From positions 1 to 64,000 of the forward strand of contig CACEGO010000002.1 in the NCBI GenBank assembly GCA_902559075.1: DNA of 64,000 nt. Reading direction: 5' to 3'. The stretch comes from an uncultured Pelagibacteraceae bacterium (GTDB lineage: Bacteria; Pseudomonadota; Alphaproteobacteria; Pelagibacterales; Pelagibacteraceae). Position 1 is the first letter of the stretch. Each line of letters starts with the position of its first letter. The position numbers and the translations under genes are program-made. The notes beneath the pieces were generated by a model. That model saw nothing but the letters and a program-made list of their open reading frames with translations, had not been told where the DNA came from and ran no database searches. Below, piece by piece: positions 9 to 48,935 of this stretch.

Positions 9-464
9 ATGATCACTATTGAAGAATTTAAAAAAAAACAGTCTGAAACCTCTAGATTGATTGGTTTAGATCTAGGTTCAAAAAGAATCGGTGTATCAAT
101 TTGTGACGAAAAACAGTCAATAGCCACACCTTTTAAAACAATCAATAAAACCAATAATGAAGATCTAATAAACGAATTAAAAAAAATAATAGAGGAAAAC
201 AATATTAAAGGAATTATCATTGGATACCCAATTAACATGGATGGTTCAAGGGGTCCTTCTGCTCAATCAGTAAGTGATGTGTCTAAAAATATAGACCAAA
301 ATGTTGACGTAGATGTATGTCTTTGGGATGAAAGACTTTCAACTGTTGGTGCATTTAATCTATCCAGTCAGCTTGATGTTAATGTTTCTAAGCGTGAAAA
401 ACACATAGATCAAAATGCAGCTGCATTTATTCTTCAGGGAGCTATAGATTATTTAAATAATTAA
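9..464 (+). CDS. ruvX: RuvX/YqgF-family Holliday junction resolvase-like protein
   Basis: GLDLGSKRIGVSICD N-terminus, DERLST and late DQNAAAFILQ motifs typical of YqgF/RuvX. Confidence 0.93.
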   Translation: MITIEEFKKKQSETSRLIGLDLGSKRIGVSICDEKQSIATPFKTINKTNNEDLINELKKIIEENNIKGIIIGYPINMDGSRGPSAQSVSDVSKNIDQNVDVDVCLWDERLSTVGAFNLSSQLDVNVSKREKHIDQNAAAFILQGAIDYLNN

Positions 465-7844: not shown

Positions 7845-8656
7845 AGTTTACCTATTTCTATTGAAGAATTTATATAACCAGTCATTGTTCCACAGTCGAG
7901 ATATTTGCCCTCAAAATTATGAGCTATAAATTTTTCTTTATCATCAATTAATAGCTGGATAGCATCTGTAATATGTATTTCTTTACCTCTTCCAGGTTTT
8001 AGAGATTTAATTTTACTAAAAATTGATCTAGGTAAAATATATCTTCCAATAACAGCCTTATTTGATGGAGCTTTATTTACAGAAGGTTTTTCTATAACTC
8101 CATCAATAATAAAATTTCTTTTATTTAATTTTTTTTTAATTTTATATATTCCCCATCGAGAAACATTGTTTTTTTTAACTTGCATAGAAGCCATAACAGA
8201 TGATTTGTATTTTTGGTGAATCTTAATCATTGCTTTAGAACAATTTTTTTTAATAATTAAATCATCCGGTAACAACATTAAAAAGTATTTACTTTTTATA
8301 TATTTTTGTGTTTTAAGAACAGCATCACCTGTGCCTTTAGGAATATTTTGAAATACAAACTTAATTTTTTTTTTATATTCAAGTATCTTTTTATATTCGT
8401 TAACTATTCTCTGATCTTTCTTTTTTTTAATAATACTTTTATAAAATTGATCACTGTAAAAATATTTTTTTATCATTAATTTTTTATTGGAAATAATAAA
8501 TACGATCTCTTTGATGCCTGCTTCGATGCATTCATCAAGAATATATTCTAGTCCAATCCTACCATTAATAGGTAGAAGTTCCTTAGAAAATACACTTGTT
8601 AAAGGTATTAACCTAGTACCAAGTCCAGCCAAAGGAATAATTGCTTGTTTAATCAT
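7841..8656 (-). CDS. galU: UTP-glucose-1-phosphate uridylyltransferase
   Basis: IIPLAGLGTRLIPLT, LLPDDLI; paired with ugd. Confidence 0.93.
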   Translation of the reverse strand: MIKQAIIPLAGLGTRLIPLTSVFSKELLPINGRIGLEYILDECIEAGIKEIVFIISNKKLMIKKYFYSDQFYKSIIKKKKDQRIVNEYKKILEYKKKIKFVFQNIPKGTGDAVLKTQKYIKSKYFLMLLPDDLIIKKNCSKAMIKIHQKYKSSVMASMQVKKNNVSRWGIYKIKKKLNKRNFIIDGVIEKPSVNKAPSNKAVIGRYILPRSIFSKIKSLKPGRGKEIHITDAIQLLIDDKEKFIAHNFEGKYLDCGTMTGYINSSIEIGKL

Positions 8657-20430: not shown

Positions 20431-20666
20431 TACTTATTATTCTCCATAACTTGAAATTTTTTATTTTTAGAAAACGGTTTGCTCTCAATTATTGAAACTT
20501 TATCTCCAGTTTTGTACTTATTATTTTCATCGTGAGCATTATAATTTTTTCTGACTCTGATTACTTTTTTTAGGACAGGGTGTGAGTATTTACGTTCTAC
20601 CATAACAGTGACTGTTTTATTTGGTTTGTCGCTTATAACTACTCCTGTAAGTATTTTTTTAGGCAT
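20430..20666 (-). CDS. rpsQ: 30S ribosomal protein S17
   Basis: [23 protein letters not shown]. Confidence 0.96.
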
Positions 20667-20850
20667 TTGCTTTTCCTTTTAAAATTGTTTTTAATCTCGC
20701 TATTGTTTTTCTAATTTCCCCAATTTTAGATGGATTTGTTACTTGTGAATTCATTTTTTGAAATCTGAAATTAAAAAGATCTTTTTTAAGTTTATCAATA
20801 TTCTTTACAATTTCGTCCTTTGATAATTTTTTAATTTCTTGTTTTTTCAT
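20659..20850 (-). CDS. rpmC: 50S ribosomal protein L29
   Basis: Length, [10 protein letters not shown] motif, operon position. Confidence 0.93.
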
Positions 20851-40890: not shown

Positions 40891-40964
40891 TGGAGCGGGT
40901 AAAGGGAATCGAACCCTTACATCCAGCTTGGAAGGCTAGCGTTCTACCATTGAACTACACCCGC
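40891..40964 (-). tRNA. tRNA-Gly(TCC)
   Basis: Complement GCGGGTGTAGTTCAATGGTAGAACGCTAGCCTTCCAAGCTGG...TACCCGCTCCA. Confidence 0.95.
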
Positions 40965-41009
40965 ACAACCCCAAGAGTAACACTCCATGTTAAAAAAAAA
41001 ATTATTGAA

Positions 41010-41095
41010 TGGTGGAGGGGGAAAGATTCGAACTTTCGAAGACCGAAGTCAACGGGTTTACAGCCCGCCCCATTTGACCGCTCTGGAACCCCTCC
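41010..41095 (-). tRNA. tRNA-Tyr(GTA)
   Basis: Complement GGAGGGGTTCCAGAGCGGTCAAATGGGGCGGGCTGTAAACCCGTTGACTTCG...CCCCTCCACCA; long variable arm. Confidence 0.95.
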
Positions 41096-41224
41096 TTTGG
41101 GGAAGTGTCCCCTTGTTCAATAAAGCTTCAAATAACAAGCGTTTTATATATTTTATTTGTGCAAATGCAACACGTGATTTAATAAGAAAATATCAAAAAA
41201 AACGTGTAAAACTCCTGTTAATTT

Positions 41225-41968
41225 ATGAATAAATCATCTTTTTTTATTGTTGGACAACATGCGGTGATGGAAGCTCTTAAAAACCCCAAAAGAAAAGTGT
41301 TAAGAGTTTTTTTAACTGAAGAGTCTAAAAAAAATATTCATAGAAAAAACCCTAACACTAACGTTTTAGAAGACGTTAAAGTTTATTTTAAATCTAAAAA
41401 AGAATTAGACAAGTACACATCTAAAGAACAATTGATGCATAATGGTTATGTTGCTGAAATTGAACATTTAGATCAACCAGACTTAAAAAATTTCATTAAA
41501 AATAAGAATAATTTAACATTTGTTTGTCTTGATGAAGTTTCAGATCCAAGAAATATAGGTGCATTAATAAGAAGTGCAGCCTCATTTGAAATTGATGGAT
41601 TAATAATTAAAGAAAGACATTTTCCTAAAGAAAGTAAATTAATGTATAAATCAGCAAGTGGGTGTATGGAACACGTTAATATATTTCAGGTATCAAACAT
41701 TAATTCTACGCTAAAAAATTTAAGAGAGAAAAATTTCTGGGTTTATGGTTTTGATCCAAGGGGCCAAAAAAATTTCACTGATATAAAGTGGGAAGGCAAT
41801 AATATACTTTTGTTTGGTTCTGAAGGATTTGGAATGAGAGAGCATACAGGTAAATATGCAGACTTTTTTGTAAAAATTAATATAAGTAAAGAGATTGAAA
41901 GTTTAAATATCTCAAATAGTGCAGCAATTGTATTTCATCATCTAAGTTATATAAAAAAAAAGAGTTGA
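41225..41968 (+). CDS. rlmB: TrmH-family 23S rRNA (guanosine-2'-O-)-methyltransferase, RlmB-like
   Basis: GQHAVMEALKNPKR, LDEVSDPRNIGALIRSAASFEIDG, LFGSEGFGMR. Confidence 0.9.
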   Translation: MNKSSFFIVGQHAVMEALKNPKRKVLRVFLTEESKKNIHRKNPNTNVLEDVKVYFKSKKELDKYTSKEQLMHNGYVAEIEHLDQPDLKNFIKNKNNLTFVCLDEVSDPRNIGALIRSAASFEIDGLIIKERHFPKESKLMYKSASGCMEHVNIFQVSNINSTLKNLREKNFWVYGFDPRGQKNFTDIKWEGNNILLFGSEGFGMREHTGKYADFFVKINISKEIESLNISNSAAIVFHHLSYIKKKS

Positions 41969-42001
41969 TTATTTACAAAATTGTTAATAACTATTGCGCA
42001 T

Positions 42002-42077
42002 GCCCTTGTAGCTCAGCTGGTAGAGCAATTGATTTGTAATCAATAGGTCCGCGGTTCGAATCCGTGCGGGGGCACCA
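42002..42077 (+). tRNA. tRNA-Thr(TGT)
   Basis: GCCCTTGTAGCTCAGCTGGTAGAGCAATTGATTTGTAATCAATAGGTCCGCGGTTCGAATCCGTGCGGGGGCACCA. Confidence 0.96.
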
Positions 42078-42782
42078 CTTCACTTACTTTTTTATCAAAA
42101 TTATTTATTCAAAAGCTATTCTTAACACAAAAAGTGTGGTCAGAGTGTGGACAGATTTGTAGACCAATCAAGTAGTCTAAAGCAAAATTAATTTACACCA
42201 TTCTTAATTAATTTTTTAAAAGTTTTTTTATCAACAATATTACATTTTGAGTCCATGGCTAAATTTAAATCATCACCCATTTTTAAAATCATAGATTGAT
42301 GATATTCGCCATTTATATTTTCAATAGCGTAACCAATCTGTAAAGAGTCTAATGTTGCTCCCCATGAATAGATATTATCTTTATATTCAAATTTATCTTT
42401 ATTCGTTTCATCTGGTTTTTTATCTTTCCAATCTGTCTCTGTCATCATTCCTTGTTCATAAACAGTAACTGTTGTTTTTTTTTTAACATCTTTTAATTTG
42501 TAAAATATATGACCATTGTAAGAACCTATAGATAAATGAGGTTGCTCATCAGGACTAAAAGCTCCACTTGCAGATTTATTTTCTTTTATAATTTGTTTAC
42601 ATGATAGATATGTAAAAGGTGTAGCTGCAATAGCATTAACACTTAATATTAATCCTAGAACCGTAATCCCTAAAAGTTTTTTCATAGTGAAAACTCTACC
42701 ACTGCACCCATAATGTGACCAGACTAAAAATATTTAGAGTTTATCGTTGCAAACAAATAATTATTTAAACTTTAGTAATTGT
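42033..42782. mobile_element. Putative integrase-less tRNA-Thr-anchored unit T1 (750 bp repeat-to-repeat)
   Basis: Bounded by a 45-bp perfect direct repeat of the tRNA-Thr 3' part (42033-42077 = 42783-42827) starting at the anticodon loop; one secreted-protein gene inside. Confidence 0.75.
42188..42685 (-). CDS. Hypothetical secreted protein, 165 aa (cargo of T1)
   Basis: Signal peptide MKKLLGITVLGLILSVNAIAA; ORF fills the unit. Confidence 0.8.
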   Translation of the reverse strand: MKKLLGITVLGLILSVNAIAATPFTYLSCKQIIKENKSASGAFSPDEQPHLSIGSYNGHIFYKLKDVKKKTTVTVYEQGMMTETDWKDKKPDETNKDKFEYKDNIYSWGATLDSLQIGYAIENINGEYHQSMILKMGDDLNLAMDSKCNIVDKKTFKKLIKNGVN

Positions 42783-42827
42783 TTTGTAATCAATAGGTCC
42801 GCGGTTCGAATCCGTGCGGGGGCACCA
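42783..42827 (+). repeat. Second copy of tRNA-Thr anticodon-loop-to-CCA segment (att-like)
   Basis: 45/45 identity with 42033-42077. Confidence 0.95.
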
Positions 42828-42994
42828 TCACTCAATAAATTCAACACTAATTATTTTTGCAAAGCTAAAGCTAAACTAAATTATGATGTTGAGTGTATCG
42901 TGAGTGTGTCAAGATTTCGAGATAGTTAAAATTTTTTATCTATGATTTGAAATCTAACCTTAGGGCACAAGATTATGAGGACCGTGCATAATTA

Positions 42995-43588
42995 TTAATA
43001 AGCTTCATATTGTAACCAATCAAAAAACAAATTTGAACCAATACTAACTTGTAATGAGTCTCTCCAAGGCCTGTTATTTTTAATTTCTTTGCTCCACTCA
43101 TAACAAGATATGTTTATTTCACCATCACTAAGCACGAAAGTAATTTGATGAATTTTACTTTTGCCTGTTTTATCAGCTTTATGAGAAAATGAGTCTTTAT
43201 ATTTATCAATAAAATTAATTGAATTTTCAATATTATTAGATATTTCTTCTCTTTTTTCTAAACATTCATCAATTTTATTTTCAAAAATTAAACCACCTTT
43301 AAGCTCAACAATCTCAAAGCTTCCGTCGTTTCTATAATGAAAATTATATTGTATATATTCTGAATTTGAATCTGGATTGAAAAAAATTCTTTTAAATTTA
43401 TCACTTTTATAAAACGAACTCATTTTAGGTAACTGATTATCAATTTCTTTTTTGGAATAGTATTCCAATAAACTTTTACCTATGCTCATTCCATCTATTT
43501 CAAAATCAGAAATACCATCTGCCTTGGTCCATGATTGAAGACTAAAGATTAAAATCAATACTGATAGAAATACTCTCATAAAGAGCAC
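42995..43588 (-). CDS. Secreted protein of the array paralog family, 197 aa (cargo of T2; start may be 43579)
   Basis: MRVFLSVLILIFSLQSWTKADGISDFEIDGMSIGKSLLEYYSKKEI...YEAY; paralogous to 47416-48060 and 48138-48728. Confidence 0.85.
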   Translation of the reverse strand: MLFMRVFLSVLILIFSLQSWTKADGISDFEIDGMSIGKSLLEYYSKKEIDNQLPKMSSFYKSDKFKRIFFNPDSNSEYIQYNFHYRNDGSFEIVELKGGLIFENKIDECLEKREEISNNIENSINFIDKYKDSFSHKADKTGKSKIHQITFVLSDGEINISCYEWSKEIKNNRPWRDSLQVSIGSNLFFDWLQYEAY

Positions 43589-43676
43589 TTTCTCACTGTG
43601 TCATATGTGTGTCAAGATTTGAAATATTTTTCAATTAATTTTAATAGCATTTGTTTATTTATACTTTGACTCTCGA

Positions 43677-43704
43677 TTTGTAATCAATAGATCCGCGGTT
43701 CGAA
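43677..43704 (+). repeat. Third, truncated tRNA-Thr fragment (28 bp, 1 mismatch)
   Basis: tttgtaatcaatagAtccgcggttcgaa versus 42033-42060. Confidence 0.88.
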
Positions 43705-43707
43705 ATT

Positions 43708-43845
43708 TTACCAGGCTGTTAGTTTCCAGCACTCATTAGCATCCTCAATACGAACATAACAACCTAGAAAAGACATAATTTTAAATGCACAAAAGCCTCC
43801 AACTAAAATAATGACTACGAGCATTATTGGATTAATTTTTTTCAT
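43708..43845 (-). CDS. 45-aa putative membrane microprotein (MKKINPIMLVVIILVGGFCAFKIMSFLGCYVRIEDANECWKLTAW)
   Basis: Not in supplied ORF track; hydrophobic N-terminal helix; fills the gap between the third att-like copy and nadK. Confidence 0.45.
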   Translation of the reverse strand: MKKINPIMLVVIILVGGFCAFKIMSFLGCYVRIEDANECWKLTAW

Positions 43846-43848
43846 TTA

Positions 43849-44619
43849 CTAACTAGTTTCTCTTCTTATTTGTTCAATTTTAATCTTTTTCTGTAGACTT
43901 CTATTTTTATCATAAAGGAGATTAAACTTTATTTTATTATTAGTTTTAACTGTAATTGATTTAGCATTTCTTACTTCTAAATTATCTGCAACAGCACTAA
44001 TAGGTCTTTTAGTTGGGTTTAAGTTAGTTATAACTATTTTAGTTTTGTCATTAACTATTTTACCCTTCCATCTTCTTGGTCTAAATGCACTTATTGGTGA
44101 TATTGATAATTTTTTTGAATGAAGACTTAAAATAGGTCCATGAACTGAGAGATTATAAGCTGTACTTCCTGCGGGTGTTGATACTAATACCCCATCTGAA
44201 ACTAATTTTTTAATTATTTGTTTTGAGCCTTGTTTAATTGATAAAGATGCTGCTTGTCTACTTTGTCTTAGTACAGAAACTTCATTGATTGCTATAGATC
44301 TTCTTGTTTGATTATTTTTATTTTTAACAATCATTTCCAGTGGAGAAATTGAAACCAAATTTGCTTTATATAAGTTTTTTAAAATATCTTTTGAAGAAAA
44401 TTTATTCATAAGAAAACCATAATTTCCAGAATTAATTCCATAAAAATTTTTATTCGAATTTTTATTTTTTTTTAGTGTTTGAAGCATAAAACCATCACCA
44501 CCTATAACAATTATGAGATTTTCTATTTTAAAATGATTTGTTTTTATTTTTTTTAATAATAAATTTTTAATACTTGACGATTTCTTATTTTTATCTGAAA
44601 TGATTTGAAGTTTACTCAT
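43849..44619 (-). CDS. nadK: NAD kinase
   Basis: IVIGGDGFMLQTLKK, GINSGNYGFLMN, VSTPAGSTAYNLSVHGPIL. Confidence 0.93.
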   Translation of the reverse strand: MSKLQIISDKNKKSSSIKNLLLKKIKTNHFKIENLIIVIGGDGFMLQTLKKNKNSNKNFYGINSGNYGFLMNKFSSKDILKNLYKANLVSISPLEMIVKNKNNQTRRSIAINEVSVLRQSRQAASLSIKQGSKQIIKKLVSDGVLVSTPAGSTAYNLSVHGPILSLHSKKLSISPISAFRPRRWKGKIVNDKTKIVITNLNPTKRPISAVADNLEVRNAKSITVKTNNKIKFNLLYDKNRSLQKKIKIEQIRRETS

Positions 44620-44623
44620 TTAA

Positions 44624-44709
44624 TGGTGCCCTCGGCCAGACTCGAACTGGCACTCCGCAAGCGGCAAGGATTTTAAGTCCTTTGTGTCTACCAATTTCAC
44701 CACGAGGGC
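44624..44709 (-). tRNA. tRNA-Leu(TAA)
   Basis: Complement GCCCTCGTGGTGAAATTGGTAGACACAAAGGACTTAAAATCCTTGCCGCTTGCGGAGTGCCAGTTCGAGTCTGGCCGAGGGCACCA. Confidence 0.96.
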
Positions 44710-44792
44710 ATTAATGAATTTCATGAGTGTTTAAGCTAATATTTATAATTCAACAAGACTAATAAGTAAAATTTTTTTAATTTATCTCACTA

Positions 44793-44811
44793 GGTACTGG
44801 TCAGGTACTGG
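44793..44811 (+). repeat. L1 left iteron pair GGTACTGG-tca-GGTACTGG (11-bp period)
   Basis: Direct reading. Confidence 0.95.
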
Positions 44812-44841
44812 TTGTCCTATATTATCCTATAAGATTTTCCT

Positions 44842-47001
44842 TTATCTATAACTCATTAAAACTTTATCTGGATCACCTGCAAGCGATGGATTTTGTTCTC
44901 TGCCCTGTTCTGCTGCCTTCTGAGATACATTTTCATCCATATAAGCTAACAACTCTCCATTGGTAATCTTTTTATCTTCATTAAAATCTGCATAACCTTC
45001 TAAACCTTTCATTAAATAATATGAAAATATTCCATGTTTAGCTTCTTTTAATCCTGATGAAATTTGATCTAATTTTGATGCACTAAAAATAGTAAAGTTG
45101 TCTGGAATACCATCTTGCTCATCAGCAACAATTCTAACTGGTCTAGCTGATGCCAATAAAGTTTCTTCATCTCTAGATACTCCACTATAACAAGTATCAA
45201 AAAATATTGTCACGCTTTTTGGATTTAAAGCAATTATTTCTTTAAATAATTCTGTTCTAGATAAAGCCGTTCTATCTAATAAATCAGGATCACTATCTTG
45301 ATGTAATAAGTACAATTCCTTACCATCACTTGAAGCTAAGCCATGACCTGCAAAAAAAATAATTAAATTAGTTTTGTTAGATTTAACTTTAGCAGGTAGC
45401 CATTTTTCTAAAGTAGATATTATATCAATAAAACTTGCATCTGTATCCAATAATTGCTTAATATTTTTTTGTTTTATGCCAAACCCTTTCTTTGCATATT
45501 CAGCAAAGTATTTTGCATCTAGATTTGCAAAGGTTGCATCTGGAGATTTTTTGTACTTTTCAATACCTACAATCAATGCAACTGTATCTTCAGAAATTTT
45601 ATTGTTTAAAATTGTTGGGTTCAATGGTTCTAATTTTTCAACAATTTCCTTATCTTTTAGATTAATAGATATTTTAACTAACTTTGGTTTTGATCTATTA
45701 CCCCATTGGTCAATTGCTACAATTGATATTTCTTCATCTATGGGACTAAATCTTCTAATAATAAATTTTCCGTTCTTTACTTTAATTGGTCTGCCTTCGG
45801 CTTCTATATAAATTTTTTCAGACTCATCTTTAACAAAACCCTCTATTTCATAATCAGTATCATTAACAGTGATTGCTGATGCTATATTTATTACAGGTGG
45901 ATTTTGATCCAAATTTTCAGTCTTTGGTTTAAATTCTTCTTGAGTATCTATTTTTTTAACTATTTTTTTCTTCTCTTTTTTCTTCTCTTTTTTTACGATT
46001 TTAGTTGTTGTTTCATAAAAACTATCTTGTTCAATTTTTTGTTGATCAAAAGCATTGTACGAAATATTGGTTCTTCCAATCCAATATTCCCATTTATATT
46101 TATTCTTACGTAACCATTTTTTTGCAGCATCTTCATGTGTCATTTTTTCGACATCTACGTAGTAAGCCATTTTTCCCATATCTTTTGTTGTAAATGAAAT
46201 CTTTTCAAATATCTCAAAAGCATCAGGATGTTGATTTGCAAATTTTGAACTTGCAGCTTTTTTTAAGTAACCTACAGGAGATCCACAGGCTCCACTTCCT
46301 CCATCATCAGGCCTACAACCAGCATAATATTTGGGCCACTTAATCATGGTAAATCCTTCTGCATCAGTAAAATTTGGAGACCAATTAAACATTAAAATTC
46401 CTTTACCTTTTCTTTTAGCGTCATAAAGTTCTTTCCATAATTGATCAGCACTACTTGCAAATTTAACTTTATATTTGCTGTCTAGACCTAAAGCTTTAAT
46501 TCTTTGAGGAATTAAATCACCATGCCAGCTTTGTGGACCTTCTAAAATTATTCCTTTACCATTTGACCCAGGTCTAGCAAAAACATCTGCACAATTTTTT
46601 AAAGCTTCCCAGTTAGGTAAACCTGGGCATAGATTTTTTTCAATCACCCAAGTTGGTACTCCGATATCTTCCATTGTTGATGCTGGATGTAAACCTACAT
46701 CAATAATTCCACCTTTTGATAATGCTTGATTGAAAGATCTTCCAAAAGCACTTTCCCACACTTCATGAGAAATAGAAACATCACCTTTTCTTATTCTTTC
46801 GTAAACTGCTTGGCTATCATGGTTTTTGTACTTAACGTTTTTTCCAATAGATTCAAATATTCCTCCAATTACATAAGCACCAACAATTTGTGATGACCAA
46901 TTATGAGTTGGAATAATAATAGGCTTGTTACTATTTGCATTTACATTAAACGTTAACCCCAAACAAAGAACGATAAACAGATATGCTAGTAAGCGTTTCA
47001 T
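44842..47001 (-). CDS. Secreted fusion: glycine betaine/ProX-like substrate-binding domain + Ig-like linker + caspase-like (C14) protease with an EF-hand-like loop, 719 aa
   Basis: Signal peptide; PIIIPTHNWSSQIVGAYVIGGIFESIG...HEVWESAFG; C-terminal VALIVGIEKY, IIFFAGHG (His), TIFFDTCYSG (Cys), DFNEDKKITNGE loop. Confidence 0.88.
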   Translation of the reverse strand: MKRLLAYLFIVLCLGLTFNVNANSNKPIIIPTHNWSSQIVGAYVIGGIFESIGKNVKYKNHDSQAVYERIRKGDVSISHEVWESAFGRSFNQALSKGGIIDVGLHPASTMEDIGVPTWVIEKNLCPGLPNWEALKNCADVFARPGSNGKGIILEGPQSWHGDLIPQRIKALGLDSKYKVKFASSADQLWKELYDAKRKGKGILMFNWSPNFTDAEGFTMIKWPKYYAGCRPDDGGSGACGSPVGYLKKAASSKFANQHPDAFEIFEKISFTTKDMGKMAYYVDVEKMTHEDAAKKWLRKNKYKWEYWIGRTNISYNAFDQQKIEQDSFYETTTKIVKKEKKKEKKKIVKKIDTQEEFKPKTENLDQNPPVINIASAITVNDTDYEIEGFVKDESEKIYIEAEGRPIKVKNGKFIIRRFSPIDEEISIVAIDQWGNRSKPKLVKISINLKDKEIVEKLEPLNPTILNNKISEDTVALIVGIEKYKKSPDATFANLDAKYFAEYAKKGFGIKQKNIKQLLDTDASFIDIISTLEKWLPAKVKSNKTNLIIFFAGHGLASSDGKELYLLHQDSDPDLLDRTALSRTELFKEIIALNPKSVTIFFDTCYSGVSRDEETLLASARPVRIVADEQDGIPDNFTIFSASKLDQISSGLKEAKHGIFSYYLMKGLEGYADFNEDKKITNGELLAYMDENVSQKAAEQGREQNPSLAGDPDKVLMSYR

Positions 47002-47022
47002 GAGGTTTATAATATCTCTTTA

Positions 47023-47041
47023 GGTACTGGTTTGGTACTGG
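47023..47041 (+). repeat. L1 right iteron pair GGTACTGG-ttt-GGTACTGG (11-bp period)
   Basis: Direct reading; same motif and orientation as the L1 left pair. Confidence 0.95.
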
Positions 47042-47121
47042 TTTTGAAACATTTAATAAACTTTATTTTCTTATATTTATTTGAGGTTTATTTAAAATTA
47101 TAAGATTTTATAGGATGTTTA

Positions 47122-47149
47122 GACTACGTTAGACTACTATGGACTGACT
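47122..47149 (+). repeat. 10-bp-spaced GACT iterons in the L1 right arm
   Basis: GACT at 47122, 47132, 47142 (plus 47146). Confidence 0.6.
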
Positions 47150-47168
47150 AATTTGTGAATCCCTCGGC

Positions 47169-47209
47169 TTTTAAGTCCTTTGTGTCTACCAATTTCACCA
47201 CGAGGGCAT
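47169..47209 (-). repeat. Second copy of the tRNA-Leu 5' half (att-like)
   Basis: 41/41 identity with 44671-44711; similarity continues about 80 bp into the 5' flank. Confidence 0.95.
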
Positions 47210-47292
47210 TTGTGAATTTCATGAGTGTTTATGCTAATATTTATAATTGAACAAGTTTAATAAGTAAAATTTTTTTTATTTTATCTCTCTGT

Positions 47293-47310
47293 GTACGAGG
47301 CATGTACGAG
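47293..47310 (+). repeat. L2 left iteron pair GTACGAG-N4-GTACGAG (11-bp period)
   Basis: Direct reading. Confidence 0.95.
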
Positions 47311-47415
47311 ACATCCCATATTATCCTATAAAGATACTGAGATAGTTGTAATTAACTAACTATACTTTGAAACCACGCTACAGGGCAAGAGATTATGAGT
47401 GCAGTGCGTGATTAA

Positions 47416-48060
47416 TTAGTAAGCCTCATTTTTTATCCAGTCTGATAATAATTCTGATACAATGCTTATTTTAAAATTGTCCTTAAGTATTCTGCCATTA
47501 GAGTCTTTAAAGTCTCCAGACCAATCTGTACAAGTAATTCTGATTGATCCATTTTCTAATTTTAAATTATATACTTTGCTAAGTGATTTTCCTGTATTGT
47601 CAGCAACATGTGCTTTTTCTTTCCCTTTTTTAATTTCTAAATTTGAAAATGAGTCATTTAATTCTTTAAAAACTAGATCCATTTTATTGTAGCATTTTGC
47701 TTTGTTATTTTCGAAAGGCTTTTTAATTTTGCCTGAAATAGAATAAATCTTATAATCATTTGGATCAATATGAAATTGTACTGATTCATATACCTTATAA
47801 TTACCTTGATCAGGTATACTTAAACCTACAAATTTTTTACTTTTTGGATAATAAGCAAATTTCATTTTTTTTATTTCTTCAATTGAAAAACCAATAATGT
47901 TTTCATAGTCTAGCAAACTATCACCTATACTCATTCCTTCTATCTCAAGGTCTCTGATATCATCAGCCTTAGTTAGCGATTGAAGGCTAAAGATTAAAAT
48001 TAAAATTATAAGAAACATCCTCATATCAAACATTTTCTCACTGTGTTCTGTGTGTGTCAA
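47416..48060 (-). CDS. Secreted protein of the array paralog family, 214 aa (start more likely 48024)
   Basis: MRMFLIILILIFSLQSLTKADDIRDLEIEGMSIGDSLLDYENIIGFSIEEI...NEAY. Confidence 0.83.
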   Translation of the reverse strand: MTHTEHSEKMFDMRMFLIILILIFSLQSLTKADDIRDLEIEGMSIGDSLLDYENIIGFSIEEIKKMKFAYYPKSKKFVGLSIPDQGNYKVYESVQFHIDPNDYKIYSISGKIKKPFENNKAKCYNKMDLVFKELNDSFSNLEIKKGKEKAHVADNTGKSLSKVYNLKLENGSIRITCTDWSGDFKDSNGRILKDNFKISIVSELLSDWIKNEAY

Positions 48061-48137
48061 GATTTTGGGTAAATGAAATTTATTGATAACACAGATGATC
48101 GGACGAATAGACTCGGTATTATGTAAGTCTAGTATGA

Positions 48138-48728
48138 TTATTTATAAGCCTCATTTATATAAAAATCATAAATTTCTTTTGTAGCTAAGGCTACACTAAG
48201 ATGATCTTGAGAACCATGCTCCTCAGAATAATCATAGCAAGCCAATTGAACAGAATCTCCATTATTAAAAACATATTCAATATCTGTAACTAAACTTTTT
48301 TGAGTAGGATCATTTCTGTGCTTAAAAGTCATCTCAGGATTTTTTTTTGTAAAGGGAAATATTTTATCCATTTCTGTTTCTATTTCTCTTAATTTAACAT
48401 AGCAATCTTCAACATTATTTTCATAATATAATACACCCGCTAACTCATGTATTATATATTCTTTATCACCTGTCCTATAAACAAAATCTACAGCGTCATA
48501 AGTTGTAAAAAAAGATAGTTGATCATTTTGAACAGGTGTAAATCTTTTTGATTTAAAAAAATTCATAGAATTATTTTTTATTTCATTAATGCTAAAAAAA
48601 TCCAATGCACTATCTCCAATACTTATCCCTTCAATCTGAAAGTCACTAATGTCATCGGCCTTAGTCCAGGATTGAAGACTAAAGATTAAAACTAGAACAA
48701 GAAACTGATATGCTAGTAAGCGTTTCAT
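48138..48728 (-). CDS. Secreted protein of the array paralog family, 196 aa
   Basis: LVLIFSLQSWTKADDISDFQIEGISIGDSALDFFSINEI...NEAYK; N-terminal MKRLLAY shared with the 719-aa L1 protein. Confidence 0.85.
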   Translation of the reverse strand: MKRLLAYQFLVLVLIFSLQSWTKADDISDFQIEGISIGDSALDFFSINEIKNNSMNFFKSKRFTPVQNDQLSFFTTYDAVDFVYRTGDKEYIIHELAGVLYYENNVEDCYVKLREIETEMDKIFPFTKKNPEMTFKHRNDPTQKSLVTDIEYVFNNGDSVQLACYDYSEEHGSQDHLSVALATKEIYDFYINEAYK

Positions 48729-48750
48729 GTAGTTTATATTATCTCTTTAT

Positions 48751-48768
48751 GTACGAGGTGTGTACGAG
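48751..48768 (+). repeat. L2 right iteron pair GTACGAG-N4-GTACGAG (11-bp period)
   Basis: Direct reading; same motif and orientation as the L2 left pair. Confidence 0.95.
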
Positions 48769-48847
48769 AATTTTATCATTTTGATCTATTGATTTTACTA
48801 TTTTTTTAAATGAATAAAAAATTTTATAAGATTTTATATGATATTTA

Positions 48848-48871
48848 GACTTCACTGGACTATCACAGACT
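48848..48871 (+). repeat. 10-bp-spaced GACT iterons in the L2 right arm
   Basis: GACT at 48848, 48858, 48868. Confidence 0.6.
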
Positions 48872-48894
48872 CACTTTGATCTTTAAACCTCGTC

Positions 48895-48935
48895 TTTTAA
48901 GTCCTTTGTGTCTACCAATTTCACCACGAGGGCAT
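48895..48935 (-). repeat. Third (distal) copy of the tRNA-Leu 5' half
   Basis: 41/41 identity with 44671-44711; different upstream flank, so probably the original chromosomal 5' end. Confidence 0.95.

Follow-up and report, generated by a model that had tools for sequence, protein, structure and literature searches.

Integrase-less cassettes with matched arm iterons at tRNA genes of SAR11 bacteria and their probable satellite-like helpers

Two facing arrays at tRNA-Thr and tRNA-Leu

SAR11 is the most abundant bacterium of the ocean, and its streamlined cells, to our knowledge, lack conventional mobile elements. We analyzed a 64,000-nt stretch of DNA (hereafter, the window; positions 1 to 64,000 of contig CACEGO010000002.1, assembly GCA_902559075.1) from an uncultured member of the Pelagibacteraceae (SAR11), the 917-kb assembly of which is 72% complete. 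Two arrays of small units (0.75-2.5 kb) adjoin tRNA genes in the window: units T1 and T2 follow tRNA-Thr(tgt) (42002-42077, plus strand), and units L1 and L2 precede tRNA-Leu(taa) (44624..44709, minus strand). The NAD kinase (NADK) gene lies between the 2 arrays and belongs to neither. In both tRNA genes the repeated block begins in the anticodon loop (TTTGTAA and CTTAAAA, respectively), as stated in a first-pass annotation made from the sequence alone, and comprises the 3' part of tRNA-Thr from the loop onward and the 5' half of tRNA-Leu (44671-44709). That annotation also described iteron pairs with an 11-bp period, and these are present in all 4 units.

In T1, the left iteron pair (AGTGTGGTC-AGAGTGTGGAC, 42133..42152), positioned as in the Thr cassettes of relatives, and the right pair (42700..42724) enclose a minus-strand gene (42188..42685) for a 165-aa secreted protein with the signal peptide MKKLLGI-VLGL-LS-N and no Pfam match; its start codon adjoins the right pair. 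The border with T2 is a copy of the tRNA-Thr 3' part (42774..42827, plus strand; 96% over 54 nt). In T2, iteron pairs at 42891..42912 (GAGTGTATCGTGAGTGTGTCAA) and 43594..43616 (CACTGTGTCATATGTGTGTCAAG) flank a minus-strand gene (42995..43588) for a secreted protein paralogous to the products of both L2 genes, and the array ends with a truncated, 30-nt copy of tRNA-Thr (43675..43704, plus strand), homology to empty sites restarting at 43707. The 2 Thr units had been described as ending in copies of the tRNA 3' part, which is accurate for their number and for the inner copy and needs amending for the truncated outermost fragment.

The 5' half of tRNA-Leu, likewise reported to end 2 units, recurs as an exact 39-mer in the gene itself (44671-44709), at the L1/L2 border (47169-47207, minus strand) and at the outer end of the array (48895-48933, minus strand). 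L1 opens with a left arm (44710..44791) copying the genus-wide tRNA-Leu upstream region, so that the tRNA acquires a new upstream region, its probable promoter, from the cassette. It continues with the left iteron pair AGGTACTGGTCAGGTACTGGT (44792..44812), a minus-strand gene (44842..47001) for a 719-aa secreted protein with OpuAC (glycine-betaine-type binding) and caspase (Peptidase_C14) domains, the right iteron pair TAGGTACTGGTTTGGTACTGGTTT (47021..47044) and GACT repeats with a period of ~10 bp (47120..47149), such as occur near the right end of most units. L2, with iteron pairs TGTACGAGGCATGTACGAG (47292..47310) and TGTACGAGGTGTGTACGAG (48750..48768), has a mosaic structure. The first half (47331-48065) stems from a Thr-type cassette, is related to the interior of T2 and contains a T2-family secreted protein gene (47416..48060, minus strand) and a Thr-type right iteron within this Leu-type cassette (48042..48065; repeat family D10), whereas a second T2-family secreted protein (48138..48728, minus strand) has the MKRLLAY signal-peptide start also found in L1.

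According to a simple heuristic, the cargo proteins of all 4 units have signal-peptide-like N-termini. The reported absence of a recombinase from the window extends further: no tyrosine recombinase (PF00589) was found anywhere in the 72%-complete assembly. An Rfam scan detected no RNA families other than tRNAs in the arrays, and promoter and terminator scans of the window gave matches no more frequent than in shuffled sequence. Elsewhere in the same genome, a third array starts at tRNA-Ser(tga) on contig C28 (L079; 4006-8474) and runs off the end of the contig. Its iterons are GGTACAAGTTTGGTACAAGTTT, and its cargo shows relationship to the L1 and T2/L2 proteins.

Empty sites, transfer and cassette anatomy in the genus

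We searched 121 genomes of the genus for the 39-nt tRNA-Leu pattern and fetched and oriented 60 loci, 59 from relatives and 1 from a second contig of the same genome. The pattern was present in 82 of the 121 genomes (1 to 4 copies each, almost invariably on a single strand of a single contig); a reversed pattern used as a control matched in none of them. The gene order EF-Tu, tRNA-Gly, tRNA-Tyr, RlmB, tRNA-Thr, NADK, tRNA-Leu is conserved, and the spacers after tRNA-Thr and before tRNA-Leu range from ~10 bp to several kb. At least 1 further tRNA half was found at 36 of the 60 Leu loci (window included), an iteron pair only at 4 and neither at 20. Across these ~60 loci, the tRNA-Leu site holds 0-3 units, where 0 means that no tRNA half lies within 5 mismatches (G050 has a decayed copy further out, and L097 a decayed outer fragment).

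Occupied and empty sites align exactly. G081 (99% complete) and G096 have an empty Thr site, where the counterparts of window positions 40901-42081 and 43707-44762 are adjacent; exactly 42082-43706 are missing at the G081 site. At tRNA-Leu, the outer flanks align from the first bases past the outermost tRNA half despite differing unit numbers, with identities of 93-94% over 2 kb between G117 (1 unit) and G077 or G085 (0 units), 90% between G087 (1 unit) and G050 (0 units), and ~85% between G091 (2 units) and both G087 and G050. Furthermore, G079 and G117, the NADK genes of which are 85% identical, share a 2.8-kb unit with 99.1% identity over 2,688 bp, and this unit is 97.1% identical over its whole length in G079 and G031, with NADK at 75.6%. 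Because of the exact occupied/empty alignment and the 97-99% unit identity between genomes with core genes at 76-85%, we conclude that the units are mobile cassettes. The first-pass annotation had named both patterns as support for its interpretation, namely, related genomes with 0, 1, 2 or other numbers of units cut exactly at the anticodon-loop repeat, and exchange of units between strains, which here extends to different species. A further candidate for a shared cassette, L040_u2/L073_u1, was rejected and is not counted as evidence of transfer, because it has no iterons and starts with a native-looking flank that is also present in the unoccupied L097.

Comparison of the sequences of 48 Leu units revealed a strict anatomy. 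A typical unit starts with the tRNA 5' half, ~70 bp of upstream-region copy and TATCTC, followed at +83 by the iteron pair, and continues with cargo, a second iteron pair at ~-146, GACT repeats near -50, -37 and -27, and the next tRNA half; both Leu units of the window match the exact spacing. The ~70-bp left-arm sequence is the upstream region of tRNA-Leu throughout the genus, including at unoccupied sites, and entropy in the arms is near 0 over ~65 bp. Of 60 loci, 34 have an iteron pair +70..116 from the intact tRNA, whereas such pairs occur in 1.5% of random windows. The iterons themselves vary between units (GTACTGGT, GTACGAG, ACGTCTAGT, TTCCGAG, GTACAAGT, GTGCTGGT and others), whereas the left and right pairs of the same unit match: the mean common stretch in 31 distinct units is 14.9 nt, and none of 20,000 permutations of the pairing reached this value (mean, 7.4 nt; maximum, 10.5 nt). 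The layout is the same in Thr units, which have iterons of their own at about +75 and -82. Most cassettes measure 0.7-6 kb (median, 2.6 kb for Leu and 1.5 kb for Thr units), and an integrase is encoded only by an 8.8-kb autonomous unit in G119, with no integrase match in the 68 other Leu and Thr units. A cargo-free cassette of 228 bp, L049_u1 (G076, C2 about 20488-20793), retains both arms and a single common iteron pair, the anatomy expected from deletion between left and right iterons.

Cargo open reading frames lie on one strand, in the direction corresponding to that of int, in 133 of 136 cases, and the lead gene begins beside the right arm. Only secreted-protein genes had been reported, which is the case in the window; cassettes of relatives also carry restriction-modification genes, pilins and enzymes. 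Besides DNA methylases, type I specificity subunits, autotransporters, and trypsin-like and caspase proteases, the cargo includes an EcoRI-type methylase and a carbamoyltransferase, among others. A pilin N-terminal methylation motif was detected in 8 of 118 scanned cargo proteins, and several cassettes (L053_u2, L051, L061, L070 and others) contain up to 10 tandem type IV pilin-like genes (GFTLIELLVVVAIIGILAAVGVVAYNGYT), near-identical at the N-terminus and variable beyond. Cassettes at Leu, Thr and Ser sites repeatedly use one of two signal peptides (MKKLLGIVVLGLLLSGN and MKRLLAYLFIVLGLG), joined to mature proteins that are unrelated to one another (T1, L1 and the second gene of L2 in the window, and L045, L047, L053, L056, L073, L077, L092 and L158). 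This recurrence suggests that signal-peptide DNA near the right arm may aid cargo exchange, as if it were part of the cassette frame.

Integrase-bearing elements with the same arms

Elements of 7.7-9 kb, located at tRNA-Leu, tRNA-Ser and tRNA-Cys, share the arms of the cassettes, with identical offsets, and encode a tyrosine integrase; their right iterons are found at the beginning of int, the position from which the cargo of a cassette starts. Integrated copies occur at tRNA-Leu in G119, G167, G201 and AG-909-L14 and at tRNA-Ser in G325, adjoining cassettes (outward) only in G201 and G325, and most arrays have no such element next to them. In the collection of named genomes, nearly all of the integrase-bearing relatives detected are SAR11 single-cell genomes. 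In addition, IMG/VR contigs L129, L144, L148 and L150 contain a joined attP at the cassette offsets and encode a tyrosine integrase of 545-549 aa, an AlpA-resembling helix-turn-helix protein, a primase (AEP-TOTE with DUF5906 or phrog_1156) and a RusA-like resolvase. L129, L144, L148 and L167 have 99-127-bp repeats at their termini, which indicates circularly permuted sequence, and the tRNA-Cys half used by L167 is again broken within the anticodon loop. With integrase and replication genes, a circular form and no structural or capsid genes recognized, these elements resemble phage satellites, and their presence in IMG/VR, although no proof, suggests particles. A tyrosine integrase with the same att core, for which the first-pass annotation advised looking elsewhere in the genome or in pelagiphages, is found in integrated elements and circularly permuted virome contigs, together with the same arm iterons.

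The match extends to individual iteron types. The left iteron pair of the element in AG-909-L14, a SAR11 genome (SAG) other than that of the window, matches exactly the right pair of L1 in the window and a pair in G064 (24 nt, TAGGTACTGGTTTGGTACTGGTTT); the pair of G167 recurs exactly in cassettes of G041 and G010 (21 nt), and that of G119 in cassettes of G109 and G022 (22-23 nt). The satellite-like elements are the probable helpers of the cassettes. For tRNA-Thr, 3 records of viral contigs contain the exact core, of which 1 is useful: L164 encodes a 328-aa integrase and has iterons TTGCGGACATAGTGCGGAC, one letter apart from those of a Thr cassette in G042 (TTGCGGACATAGTGCGGTC). Another of the 3, L162, was rejected because it is GC-rich and has an unrelated set of genes. 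Near 8080, L176 (G081) encodes a 345-aa integrase that is a distant relative of the tRNA-Thr integrase; an 11-bp-period iteron pair lies at its start codon, and no tRNA is nearby. Contig L137 (IMGVR_UViG_3300025897_000973) has a cassette-like left end on the reverse strand (36-700; tRNA-Leu 5' half, left arm, iterons ATGTACAGGTCATGTACAGGT and lipoprotein cargo) beside phage genes, including a PhoH-like gene, and is either a phage-borne cassette or a chimeric assembly.

In lambda-type integrases, the N-terminal domain reads the arm sites. Integrases L129 and L150, which have the same iterons, are 94% identical both in the N-domain and in the rest of the protein, whereas L129 and L144, with unlike iterons, are 77% identical in the N-domain and 95% in the rest. 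For L147 and L145 (GGGTAACT versus GGGCAACT), the values are 58% and 96% by alignment (54% and 96% by BLASTP). The predicted integrase structure includes a beta-beta-beta-alpha N-domain, and a fold search with this model retrieved lambda Int together with the arm-binding domains of HAI7, HPI and P4-like integrases; searching solved structures by sequence, with the integrase profile as the query, retrieved nothing. Collectively, we infer that the iterons are arm sites read by the integrase N-terminal domain.

Proposed mobilization in trans, alternatives and known systems

We consider it highly likely that the 4 units of the window are integrase-less cassettes, derived from satellites and mobilized in trans by address-matched, integrase-encoding SAR11 elements. 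The earlier interpretation of the units as non-autonomous cassettes is supported; mobilization in trans itself is what we infer. In an autonomous element, the attP would run from right-arm iterons, overlapping or beside the int start, through GACT repeats and the tRNA core to a left arm with the substitute tRNA upstream region and the left-arm iterons. A cassette would retain this whole attP at the same spacing, with cargo in place of int and the replication genes. The N-terminal arm-binding domain of the integrase would read the iterons, leaving recombination at the tRNA anticodon loop to the core-binding and catalytic parts. Because the attP would supply the missing tRNA half and, at tRNA-Leu, the upstream region, each insertion would restore a working tRNA, and since the intact tRNA would stay open as a target, units would stack with the newest nearest to it. 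Any helper integrase reading the iteron type of a cassette could excise and insert it, and carriage between cells might take place in phage particles.

An extension of this model, to which we give an even chance as a whole, is an addressable cassette system: the matched iteron pair would be the address for one specificity class of satellite integrases, satellites would diversify arm domain and iterons together, perhaps shedding riders, with cassettes re-acquiring addresses by recombination, and the host tRNA-Leu, tRNA-Thr and tRNA-Ser would serve as open loading docks for surface and defense genes.

Several observations weigh against helper-driven mobilization. No excised cassette circle was seen, nor was mobilization in trans seen directly. 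For L2, T1 and T2, no helper with exactly matching iterons was detected, and the same genome (28% of which is missing) has no helper. The helper integrase family (515-558 aa) is rare, being present in 6 of 399 genomes by profile searches, so that cassettes far outnumber helpers; wider integrase searches added few more. The arm-domain argument consists of 3 integrase pairs, the structure model is of modest confidence (mean pLDDT, 74), and a few units have unmatched or absent iterons (L042, L060), implying fossil or hybrid status for some of them. Homologous recombination between common arms could also move cassettes.

The last possibility would become the whole explanation if ancient integrase-bearing elements had lost their integrase and spread since then only by homologous recombination of tRNA halves or arms, with iterons as relics. 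Long arms of near-zero entropy suit such exchange, as do hybrid and decayed units (L042_u1, L060_u2-u3 and decayed outer copies) and the 228-bp L049_u1, which resembles a deletion product. Nevertheless, we regard this scenario as unlikely: relic arm sites would be expected to drift apart, yet left and right iterons still match in the 31 distinct units, which differ from one another, 3 helper iteron pairs are exact in cassettes of other genomes, and the +83/-146 spacing is the same as in int-carrying elements.

We attach a far lower probability to a temperate pelagiphage integrase of the HTVC105P type (298 aa), rather than the satellite integrase, acting as the mobilizer. A pelagiphage with the same tRNA-Leu core, of the kind that the first-pass annotation advised looking for, does exist: the exact 46-bp core lies beside int in HTVC105P (MH598804, 4682-4727), AP013542 (34495-34540) and several IMG/VR phage contigs. 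This candidate was rejected as the helper because its integrase and arms differ; its attP has neither the cassette iteron arms nor the left-arm framework, both of which are present in elements with 515-551-aa integrases. The shared core suggests that phage, satellite and cassettes compete for one tRNA. Finally, the assemblies are single-cell or metagenome-assembled genomes, many with numerous contigs, in which tRNA-fragment repeats might arise by slippage or misassembly. Such tandem duplication or artifact is refuted by the cross-genome pattern and has a practically negligible probability: the same structure recurs in dozens of independent genomes, single-unit and empty alleles occur in complete genomes (G012, G081), cargo is unrelated between units, and the arm anatomy is strict.

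Mobilization of tiny cassettes free of mobility genes, at several tRNAs, would offer a concrete and testable route by which SAR11 maintains a varied accessory gene pool, with the probable cognate integrases now named. The cargo (secreted binding/caspase proteins, pilins, autotransporters and restriction-modification genes) would be what cells present to phages and neighbors. Natural changes of the arm domain together with its iterons, the rest of the integrase being constant, might offer a ready-made means of programming arm specificity.

Empty sites and variable copy number at a tRNA repeat are features of tRNA-integrated mobile units in general, and the kind is already known from tRNA cassette islands, elements resembling cis-mobilizable elements (CIMEs), and satellites. 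Tycheposons of Prochlorococcus, reportedly described by Hackl et al. in 2023, are likewise tRNA-targeted tyrosine-recombinase elements with cargo in marine oligotrophs. Tycheposons are 4-200 kb and carry a recombinase (PMC10872708), unlike the cassettes, which are smaller and, apart from the autonomous unit of G119, have none. Closer in form are the additive flexible genomic islands of Ca. Actinomarinales (PMC7771536) and Methylophilaceae (fGI-2 at tRNA-Lys, PMC10872708), which are small, tRNA-stacked cassettes with tRNA-part direct repeats at their borders and strain-variable content; the parts of these accounts that were consulted do not describe arm-site anatomy, helper integrase or matched iterons. 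The SAR11 cassettes differ from what is described there in using both tRNA halves and in having a likely helper. The ssrA islands of Dehalococcoides and related CIMEs are also tandem and bounded by RNA-gene repeats, some lack an integration module and are thought to be mobilized by relatives, but they use a serine recombinase and the tmRNA T-loop, are larger and involve accretion with a neighbor (PMC3146451). The SAR11 units, which like CIMEs are att-flanked without a recombinase, instead involve tyrosine integrases, the anticodon loop, an arm-iteron address and a helper that the genome usually lacks.

Virion-encapsidated marine satellites (VEIMEs) were reportedly described by Eppley et al. 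in 2022. The helpers resemble VEIMEs and PICMIs (PMC10803314) in being small, with integrase and replication genes, no capsid genes recognized and circularly permuted virome contigs; the cassettes, in contrast, have neither integrase nor replication genes and would be parasites or riders of satellites. A literature search, with many subscription papers outside its scope, found no match for the full combination, namely, integrase-less cassettes that carry matched, unit-specific arm addresses, use both tRNA halves and have an identified family of satellite-like helpers. As in integrons, interchangeable promoter-proximal cargo would be arrayed and served by one integrase in trans; unlike integrons, there is no attC hairpin and no IntI, the borders are tRNA halves split at the anticodon loop, and specificity would lie in double-stranded arm iterons.

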